From Hyphomicrobiales bacterium (GTDB taxonomy: Bacteria > Pseudomonadota > Alphaproteobacteria > Rhizobiales > Beijerinckiaceae): a stretch of DNA of 64,000 nucleotides. The position numbers and the translations under genes were made by a program. This document shows positions 1,367 to 25,084 of the stretch, piece after piece (the first letter of the stretch is position 1; the number at the start of each line of letters is the position of its first letter). The stretch is taken from contig JAGXAM010000008.1 of NCBI GenBank assembly GCA_019075905.1, positions 1-64,000 of the forward strand. The letters are read 5' to 3'. Under the pieces are notes generated by a model that worked only from the letters and a program-made list of their open reading frames with translations, did no database searches and was not told the DNA's origin.

Positions 1367-1443
1367 TGGTCGGAGTGAGAGGATTCGAACCTCCGACCCC
1401 CTCGTCCCGAACGAGGTGCGCTACCAGACTGCGCTACACTCCG
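1367..1443 (-). tRNA. tRNA-Pro (anticodon CGG)
   Basis: A complete 77-nt cloverleaf on the minus strand. The 7-bp acceptor stem is CGGAGTG/CACTCCG, the T-arm is GGAGGTTCGAATCCTC, and the anticodon stem CCTCG/CGAGG encloses the loop TTCGGGA, giving anticodon CGG, which reads CCG. The 3' CCA is encoded (TGG at 1367-1369 on the plus strand). It lies at the point where codon usage changes, which is why it deserves attention as a possible integration site. Confidence 0.97.
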
Positions 1444-2465: not shown

Positions 2466-2580
2466 GGTCAGTTTGACTTTCGAATCACGGGCGTCAGTTT
2501 ACGTAGAATGACCATCAAGTTCAAGCACCCGGCCGATCAATTGACGCAGTTCGAACTTCGGTCTAGCACAGGGCGTGATG

Positions 2581-2764
2581 AAGGTTTTCCGTGTTGAGCG
2601 GAAATGAAAAGGGAATGCGGTGCGTGCCTGTCGCGGGCACAAGGCCGCAGCTGCCCCCGCAACTGTGAATGGGGAGCCGCGCTGCAAGACCCACTGGTGC
2701 CTGGCACCGGGAAGGAGCAGCAGGCCGGGATCCATGAGTCAGGAGACCTGCCCGCATCATCCAG
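2581..2764 (+). promoter_or_regulatory. Cobalamin (adenosylcobalamin) riboswitch
   Basis: The conserved landmarks occur in order: a GAAAAGGGAA segment near 2607, the B12-box core GCAGCTGCCCCCGCAACTGTGAA at about 2648-2670, the CCCACTG element near 2691, a CCGGGAAGG segment, and the ATGAGTCAGGAGACCTGCC terminus at about 2734-2752. It lies 130-310 bp upstream of the first cobalamin gene, so it should repress the cluster when B12 is plentiful. A GC-rich hairpin (2784-2824) follows and may be the expression platform. This element and the platform fill most of the 430-bp gap between mipZ and the DUF1636 gene. Confidence 0.93.
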
Positions 2765-2783
2765 CTGGCTTCGGGCGGGGTGC

Positions 2784-23480: not shown

Positions 23481-23508
23481 TTGCATCGCGGCGCAAAAGG
23501 CGTATCTC
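23481..23508 (+). promoter_or_regulatory. Putative sigma-70 promoter for the odc leader
   Basis: TTGCAT (23481-23486), a 16-bp spacer and TATCTC (23503-23508), preceded by an A/T-rich tract that could act as an UP-like element. Transcription from here would give a leader of about 430 nt before the decarboxylase start. The call rests on sequence likeness only. Confidence 0.4.
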
Positions 23509-23514
23509 TCGCCT

Positions 23515-23953
23515 TGCCCAATTTCGCACGTGCCTGTGGTCGTGTGTCGGTTGGCGCTTTTCCGGACAAGAGGCCGGATGTGCGTCAGGTAAAACCGGCA
23601 GCCGGAGGCTAACCGGCGAACCCCTCCCAAGGGGGATCGCGACTTGAAGCAACGACGGACCGGGCTTTTTCGTCTCTGTTGACCCTCCAAAGGTCAGCGT
23701 CATGAAGAGGCTTGTCTTTCTTGCCGGGCGTGCGGTCGGGACCCAATCCCTACCAAACGATGGCTGATCCTCTCTGGCACGGATTCCGTGACTGGGATGC
23801 TCACCACGGCGCAGCACCGGACTGGTTCAGCGACCAGTCTTTGTGGCGGCTCATAAGAGCGCGTGTGGCGTCTCCACAACGCCATCGACGCTTGTCGCCA
23901 TCACGTCTTTGGTTCGCGCGTCATATTTGACGGCGCGCGAGGAGGGTACTGTT
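23515..23953 (+). ncRNA. Structured 5' leader of ornithine decarboxylase (speF-type motif)
   Basis: About 440 nt of non-coding, hairpin-rich sequence directly upstream of an alphaproteobacterial ornithine decarboxylase gene, the setting of the known speF RNA motif. Visible helices: CCGG..CCGG near 23562-23577, CCCCT/AGGGG near 23622-23636, TGACC/GGTCA near 23682-23698, a perfect GACTGGT/ACCAGTC hairpin near 23818-23837, TGGCGT/ACGCCA near 23868-23886, and a GCGCGTCA/TGACGGCGCGC hairpin that abuts the GGAGGG Shine-Dalgarno at 23941-23946. Short ORFs (23702-23767 and 23760-23930) lie inside. Assignment to the speF motif is by position, size and structure; I cannot align it here. Confidence 0.7.
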
Positions 23954-25084
23954 ATGACTGATCGCATTCTGGATTTCCTGCGTCACCGACGCGATGAAGG
24001 CCCCTGCATGGTGCTCGACCTCGATGTCGTGCGCGAGAATTATGCGCGCTTTGCCCAGGCGCTGCCCGACACCCGCGTCTATTACGCCGTGAAGGCGAAC
24101 CCCGATGCGCGCGTGCTCGACCTGCTGGCGAGGCTCGGCTCAAGCTTTGATACGGCCTCTGTGGTGGAAATCGAGCAGGTTCTGGCGGTAGGCGTTGGCG
24201 CTGATCGCATCTCCTATGGCAACACCATCAAGAAGGAGCGTGATATTGCCCGCGCCTTCGCGCTGGGAGTGCGCCTGTTTGCGGTTGACAGCGAGGCCGA
24301 GGTCGAAAAAATCGCCCGCGCTGCCCCTGGCTCCAGGGTTTTCTGCCGCATCCTGTCGGATGGCTCGGGGGCCGAATGGCCGCTGTCGCGCAAATTCGGC
24401 TGCGCGCCGGCCATGGCCGCGGGCATCCTCGAACTTGCGCACCGGCTGGGGCTGGTTGCCCATGGCCTGTCGTTCCACGTCGGCTCGCAGCAACGCAACC
24501 CGCGCATGTGGGATGGCGCTCTGAAGGATTGCGGCGCCATTTTCCGCGATCTCGCCGAGCGCGGCATCACGCTCAACATGGTCAACCTCGGCGGTGGCTT
24601 TCCGACCCGCTATCTGAAAGATGTGCCGGCGGTGAAGGCCTATGGCCAGGCGATTTTCCGGGCCCTGCGGCGCCATTTCGGCAACCGCATTCCCGAGACG
24701 ATCATCGAGCCCGGCCGCGGCATGGTTGGCAATGCCGGCATGATCGAGGCCGAAGTGGTGCTAATTTCCAGGAAATCGGCCGAAGACAAGGTCAAGTGGG
24801 TCTATCTCGACATCGGCAAGTTCAATGGCCTCGCCGAGACCATGGACGAGATGATTCGCTATCCGATCCGCACCGCCTTTGATGACGATGCGCTGGAGCC
24901 TTGCGTGCTGGCCGGGCCCTCGTGCGATTCGGTCGATGTGCTTTATGAAAAAGACCCCTACATGCTGCCGGTCAGTCTGGAGATCGGCGCCAAGGTGCTG
25001 ATCGAGGGTTGTGGTGCCTATACGACGACCTATTCGACCGTCGGCTTCAACGGCTTCCCGCCGCTGAAATCCTATGTGATCTGA
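23954..25084 (+). CDS. Ornithine decarboxylase (group IV, PLP-dependent)
   Basis: Decarboxylates ornithine (possibly lysine too) to putrescine (cadaverine), the first step of polyamine synthesis. The 376-residue alanine-racemase-fold protein has the PLP lysine at Lys47 (YYAVKANPD), HVGSQQRNPRMW, NLGGGFPTRY, IEPGRGMVGNAG and the active-site Cys in GPSCDSVDVL. ATG 23954 follows GGAGGG by 7 nt. A longer in-frame opening into the leader is not homologous. The gene is monocistronic, ending at a strong intrinsic terminator, and is probably controlled through its leader RNA. Substrate choice between ornithine and lysine is not certain from sequence. Confidence 0.92.
   Translation: MTDRILDFLRHRRDEGPCMVLDLDVVRENYARFAQALPDTRVYYAVKANPDARVLDLLARLGSSFDTASVVEIEQVLAVGVGADRISYGNTIKKERDIARAFALGVRLFAVDSEAEVEKIARAAPGSRVFCRILSDGSGAEWPLSRKFGCAPAMAAGILELAHRLGLVAHGLSFHVGSQQRNPRMWDGALKDCGAIFRDLAERGITLNMVNLGGGFPTRYLKDVPAVKAYGQAIFRALRRHFGNRIPETIIEPGRGMVGNAGMIEAEVVLISRKSAEDKVKWVYLDIGKFNGLAETMDEMIRYPIRTAFDDDALEPCVLAGPSCDSVDVLYEKDPYMLPVSLEIGAKVLIEGCGAYTTTYSTVGFNGFPPLKSYVI

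Follow-up and report, generated by a model that had tools for sequence, protein, structure and literature searches.

The ornithine decarboxylase (ODC) gene of the window, by which we mean the whole stretch of 64,000 nucleotides analyzed here (part of contig C29 of a 2.88-Mb genome), is preceded by a long leader. This leader is a regulatory RNA that has been described but not explained, rather than a hidden small gene. Two Rfam families, ar45 and speF, lie next to each other in this leader, and the core of the former is also found ahead of polyamine biosynthesis genes elsewhere in the alphaproteobacteria, suggesting that the pathway end product is what it senses. On balance, we favor reading the leader as a regulatory RNA that acts in cis on polyamine genes and whose core would sense this end product, probably as a metabolite sensor.

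The leader extends for 438 nt (23516 to 23953, forward strand), from an inferred start at GCCC (23516) to the ATG of the ODC, so that the leader of about 430 nt reported in a preliminary description of this DNA is indeed present. Upstream of it, a promoter-like sequence (23481 to 23508, forward strand) could be read by eye, formed by TTGCAT (23481 to 23486) and TATCTC (23503 to 23508) with 16 nt in between; it is absent from the list produced by a consensus promoter scan of the window. The gene itself (23954 to 25084, forward strand) codes for a type III PLP decarboxylase, with the PF02784 (E value of 3.4e-55) and PF00278 domains found in such enzymes, and its best PDB matches are lysine/ornithine decarboxylases (E value of 4.4e-56). 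By the ODC, the closest named relatives are Hyphomicrobiales and Beijerinckiaceae-type records (97% for MAG LL6.bin45). The complete leader folds more strongly than 100 out of 100 dinucleotide shuffles (z of −3.55). Its last predicted hairpin (23913 to 23941) abuts the Shine-Dalgarno (SD) sequence AGGAGGG (23940 to 23946) with a two-base overlap, both together occupying 23913 to 23946 of the forward strand, as the preliminary description had proposed. Elsewhere in the window, Rfam identified a cobalamin riboswitch (2565 to 2769, forward strand, 120.7 bits) and a tRNA gene (1370 to 1443, reverse strand, 65.5 bits).

The two Rfam matches at gathering level together span positions 23516 to 23809 of the forward strand. 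The ar45 domain (RF02347, 23516 to 23669), with an aptamer-like 5' core and a long variable arm, scores 64.7 bits (gathering threshold of 40), and the speF domain (RF00518, 23677 to 23809) scores 39.9 bits, just above its cutoff of 37 bits. The identity of the region as a speF leader, suggested earlier along with an Rfam check, is therefore supported by a match above gathering, marginal as it is. Among 289 alphaproteobacterial genomes (E value of 0.001), speF was found in 12 and ar45 in 12, with both of them present in 11; the twelfth ar45 match (G260) is below the cutoff, at a locus without an ODC match. The distance between both domains is 7 to 9 nt in all 11 genomes that have the two, and because of this constancy we consider ar45 and speF to be a single leader. 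Named carriers of both are S. meliloti (odc2), Thalassospira marina, and Methylobacterium bullatum. Within the order, speF was detected in 205 of 397 genomes at an E value of 0.001 (173 pass the cutoff), and 133 of the 134 loci fetched via RNA matches, some of them from the same genome, have an ODC match, the exception being the G260 locus. The excerpts available of Corbino 2005 (PMC1273637) already describe ar45 and speF as one "extended speF element," in which a stem close to the transcription start carries a large insertion; we equate this stem with ar45. Similarly, smrC45 was equated with speF in the excerpted text of PMC2573895. The ar45/SmrC45 RNA is nevertheless filed as a separate small RNA (sRNA), whereas here we read it as the 5' domain of an ODC leader, and its core as a wider element.

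At the transcript start, the ar45 domain forms a closed stem enclosing two strands that are nearly invariant (all of the following features are on the forward strand). The stem is closed by helix P1, in which GCCC (23516 to 23519) pairs with GGGC (23662 to 23665), and sequence and alignment place the invariant strands at 23525 to 23534 (CGCACGUGCC) and 23649 to 23657 (GCAACGACG). Directly after P1 there is a U tract (23666 to 23670), where a short ar45 RNA might end; the tract is T-rich in most aligned relatives and C-rich or absent in some. Next comes a predicted helix (23672 to 23711) between GUCUC (23672 to 23676) and GAGGC (23707 to 23711), over the SD-like sequence GAAGAGG. In its build, ar45 resembles a ligand-binding aptamer. 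The speF domain contains a hairpin with a UCCA loop (Pa, 23680 to 23696), and a third conserved hairpin (23867 to 23883), with UCUCCA in its loop, was identified past the Rfam speF boundary by folding and leader comparison. Hairpins with a YUCCA loop are present beyond this boundary in 145 of 185 leaders, compared to 13.4 expected from block shuffles.

Support for these structures was obtained by counting, helix by helix in 183 aligned leaders, the branches with compensatory double changes and comparing them with slid partners. The ar45 helix P3 has such changes on 20 branches (0 to 1 for slid partners) and the speF hairpin Pa on 36 (0 to 4), so the covariation check called for in the preliminary description came out positive in two helices. 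P1 and the GUCUC/GAGGC helix are nearly invariant in the 183 leaders and give no covariation signal either way; the outer P1 pairs are unpaired in about 40 alignment rows, in which GCCC appears by eye to be shifted by one base. When folded singly, the ar45 and speF segments are weakly better than shuffles (z of −1.5 and −1.2), so the strong evidence for structure is comparative. When all column pairs were scanned for covariation against a tree-based null, no pair fell below 0.2 expected, the best one (in an ar45 helix) being at 0.23, and for this reason we relied on the helix-wise counts. Two other pairings are not claimed. The one between UCGCAC in ar45 and GUGCGG in speF is perfect in most of the 183 leaders and has no double changes, with uncompensated changes in L007, L011, L158, and L202, and in a possible switch of UUGCC between GAGGC and a later GGC, both partners are nearly invariant. 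The window thus shares with the published speF leader a score above gathering, the covarying hairpin, and its place before a COG0019-type ODC. The excerpted sections of PMC1273637 give neither a ligand nor a form outside the extended element, and they mention further conserved blocks without structure, one of which is probably the UCUCCA hairpin.

The two overlapping small frames described previously within the leader are located exactly as reported, ORF A (21 codons plus stop, starting MKRLVFLAGRAV) at 23702 to 23767 and ORF B (56 codons plus stop) at 23760 to 23930, both on the forward strand, and we judged neither of them to be coding. In the 183 aligned leaders, the start position of ORF A is CTG in 89, CCG in 65, CTA in 18, and ATG in 3 (4 of 185 in an alternative count of leaders), and that of ORF B is ATG in 70 and AAG in 69. 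The spacing across ORF A differs from leader to leader in a way that does not preserve the frame. In a relative of the same genus (L008), a stop cuts ORF B to 5 codons, and the single change in ORF A is nonsynonymous. Changes inferred on a tree of 61 relatives at codon positions 1, 2, and 3 number 63/91/66 in ORF A and 772/703/786 in ORF B, without the excess at the third position that is clear in the first 300 nt of the ODC (352/240/1,339). A further frame, started by a conserved UUG (23721), has no codon signal in the window's leader type, and its median length in 170 leaders (37 codons) does not exceed that of the other two frames (48 and 43.5). The small ORFs are thus not selected as peptides, and coding in ORF A, ORF B, and the UUG frame is rejected for the window's leader. 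The preliminary description had considered the two ORFs as possible translated leader peptides, to be checked by codon-like substitution patterns, and on both counts the outcome is negative. It had also asked whether these leaders use a peptide or sense a ligand directly. The mechanism is indeed unsettled in the literature, as far as the excerpts of PMC1273637 go, and the peptide answer is negative for ORFs A and B, although orders outside Rhizobiales may have an upstream ORF (uORF).

The minimal core, composed of CGCACGUGCC and GCAACGACG plus a closing stem, also occurs in other Alphaproteobacteria, where the speF half is missing. A search for the exact pattern CGCACGTGCC-N5..35-GCAACGACG in 367 alphaproteobacterial genomes retrieved 46 places in 38 genomes (the reversed-pattern control retrieved one genome), and 43 of these places precede either ODC-type decarboxylases (39) or homospermidine synthase (HSS; 4, two of them with an ODC after the HSS). 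The decarboxylases are ODC orthologues (45 to 63% identity) at 30 places and an ODC-like protein (32 to 36% identity) at 9, that of L258 matching lysine/ornithine decarboxylases in PDB; of the remaining three places, two are cut by contig ends, and we take the other (L251) as a coincidence. A conserved core shared by multiple genes from a single pathway, here those for ODC, ODC-like decarboxylase, and HSS, is the arrangement looked for in a riboswitch, and a compact core in such a position is typical of metabolite sensors. Some genomes have three cores (G274 and G744) or two (G203, G087, and G043), located before different polyamine genes. P1 is replaced as a helix among cores (GCCC/GGGC, GACGC/GCGUC, and GACGU/ACGUC), with GACGC/GCGUC in the majority of 47 minimal cores. 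In a compact variant (6 loci, including Ruegeria and Tritonibacter), a U-to-C change in the core and an A-to-G change facing it occur together, perhaps as one event.

A covariance model built from 42 minimal cores was tried on 30 sources and matched 20 leaders outside the training set at an E value of 0.002 or lower; the window, L026, L050, L064, and L107, all with long arms, were not matched. The model detected the compact variant of Ruegeria sp. TM1040 and Tritonibacter mobilis (E value of 0.0001), for which Rfam reports nothing at gathering level. Among 289 Pseudomonadota genomes it matched nine, all of them Alphaproteobacteria, at 10 places, and the six new places all precede ODC-type decarboxylases. 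Rfam run at an E value of 1 on 20 loci (17 of them pattern matches) gave ar45 above the cutoff solely in L218, with matches below it in L219 (33 bits) and L252 (26.5 bits). A single minimal core folds no better than shuffles, and a plasmid search with one HSS-type leader gave no match. ODC was also present (E value of 1e-60) in 5 of 80 genomes of the order called leader-lacking: L218 and L219 have a leader that had been missed, L221 has the ar45 core alone, and in L220 and L222 no leader was seen by motif search or reading. The genome of L221 (G291) measures 1.4 Mb, and the core before its ODC has the P1 found in other orders (GACGC/GCGUC). As far as our literature search reached, the wider ar45 core is new. 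It goes uncalled by Rfam at the cutoff in the minimal loci scanned, and it may overlap the published odc1 motif.

The association with HSS provides a possible ligand. The genome under study has its own HSS (L215), which matches the homospermidine synthases in PDB. At an E value of 1e-60, HSS was found in 75 of 80 leader-bearing genomes of the order versus 10 of 80 leader-lacking ones (3 of these 10 at 32 to 36% identity), an association that largely tracks the presence of ODC, as only the five leader-lacking genomes mentioned above have one. The leader genomes with no HSS match among the 80 are G402, G449, G556, G641 (where the leader match is weak), and G658. At the level of the class (E value of 1e-40), HSS is present in 26 of 38 pattern-bearing genomes (two as fragments) and in 11 of 42 pattern-lacking ones (Fisher P value of 0.0003), a rough comparison set in which G043 (with HSS) and G154 (without it) were later found to have the core; the other 12 of the 38 gave no HSS match. 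In 47 of 80 named loci, the ODC is followed on the same strand by HSS, and of the 59 leader genomes tabulated, 32 have HSS no more than 8 kb away from the leader. For carboxyspermidine decarboxylase (NspC), the 38 pattern-bearing genomes gave 16 matches below the cutoff and none above it. Two genomes of 1.5 to 1.6 Mb that we read as Bartonella-like (L025 and L034, from G449 and G658) have a full leader and no HSS match.

According to the excerpted text of PMC13293326, most nitrogen-fixing rhizobia have putrescine and homospermidine as their sole soluble polyamines. In A. tumefaciens, binding to the leader was negative for six compounds of the pathway (PMC1273637), and homospermidine is not among the six in the list excerpted from that paper. 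For an OFF switch placed before both ODC and HSS, the end product would fit better than putrescine, and we propose homospermidine as the first ligand candidate. A strict homospermidine switch is disfavored by the 12 of 38 pattern-bearing and 5 of 80 leader genomes without an HSS match, and by the fact that HSS largely tracks ODC. In the mechanism we envisage, the end product, when abundant, would bind the core and hold P1; this product would be a triamine, for many of these species probably homospermidine. The transcript would then end after the U tract, yielding a separate ar45 RNA, or, alternatively, the start region would stay covered; by either route, less ODC would be made. The hairpin after the U tract could cover the SD-like purine stretch, and the speF domain and the UCUCCA hairpin may be later additions acting on translation. 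More tentatively, the ar45 core could be the aptamer of an undescribed alphaproteobacterial riboswitch class that senses homospermidine or triamines and controls ODC and HSS, with the ar45 plus speF leader of Rhizobiales as its most elaborate form.

A different type of control, which we regard as unlikely, would be by a leader peptide, the mode known from gammaproteobacterial speF, with ribosomes stalling on a short uORF when ornithine or a polyamine is sensed. What speaks for it comes from the minimal leaders, as 41 of 43 have their first AUG with an SD-like tetramer at 52 to 72 nt past the core (a count without shuffled control), and 16 of 31 short uORFs, several from close relatives, have Ser-Ser near the stop (L225 to L228, L234, L237, L241 to L244, L248, L249, and L267 to L270). 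The first of these serines uses all six codons and the second is always AGT, a pattern that may belong to a leader peptide or else to a motif of the RNA. However, in seven minimal leaders (L233, L235, L240, L253, L255, L265, and L266) this AUG is in frame with the ODC and gives it an N-terminal extension, and in the window neither ORF A and ORF B nor the UUG frame, which is not longer than the others, has a codon signal. The gammaproteobacterial speFL arrest peptide controls ornithine decarboxylase via a conserved leader peptide, whereas in the window's relatives ORF A and ORF B are not conserved and the UUG frame does not qualify as a conserved translated ORF. Moreover, gammaproteobacterial SpeF has a different fold from type III decarboxylases, so the comparison would not carry over directly. 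An anti-SD helix considered in 40 minimal leaders is complementary, but it was rejected, since swapping the partners gave better pairing than the native combination in 5,000 of 5,000 permutations.

We give somewhat less credit to the leader being the binding site of a protein regulator instead of that of a metabolite. A protein could equally well recognize the nearly invariant internal loops and the recurring UCCA loops, and coprecipitation of S. meliloti ar45 with Hfq is cited in the excerpted text of PMC7717549, but a compact core preceding several genes of one pathway argues for a metabolite. It seems very improbable that ar45 is an independent trans-acting sRNA gene located by chance upstream of a speF leader. 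Separate ar45 transcripts have been reported from S. meliloti and B. bacilliformis (excerpts of PMC2780559 and PMC7717549), in the latter expressed apart from the speF leader (PMC7717549). However, premature termination would also yield a separate short RNA, the distance to speF is held in every genome with both domains, and elsewhere the core alone precedes ODC or HSS.

The metabolite sensor that we favor can also be compared with two published leaders. The odc1 (uORF-25-1) motif, as described in the excerpts of PMC8632094, is likewise alphaproteobacterial and located before ODC, with a ribosome-binding site inside a stem and an upstream start codon. Its two UUG starts are separated by two nt, and its uORF, fixed at 11 residues, starts at position 75 of the tested RNA, whereas the UUGs of the window (23712 and 23721) are six nt apart, and in the minimal cores the AUG is farther away and the uORF varies in length; this description sets them apart from odc1, with overlap being possible. 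The spermidine riboswitch (PMC10853860, in excerpt) is also a polyamine-sensing leader, but it is a variant of the SAM-I aptamer, and Rfam gave no SAM-family match at gathering level in the window. Natural polyamine-sensing RNAs seem to be rare, with one convincing class found by our term search and the excerpts of PMC10853860. Going by PMC1273637, the speF leader has remained an orphan from 2005 onward. If its 5' half is a decorated form of the compact HSS-associated element, a minimal form of about 60 nt and homospermidine would be a short and cheap route to settle it.
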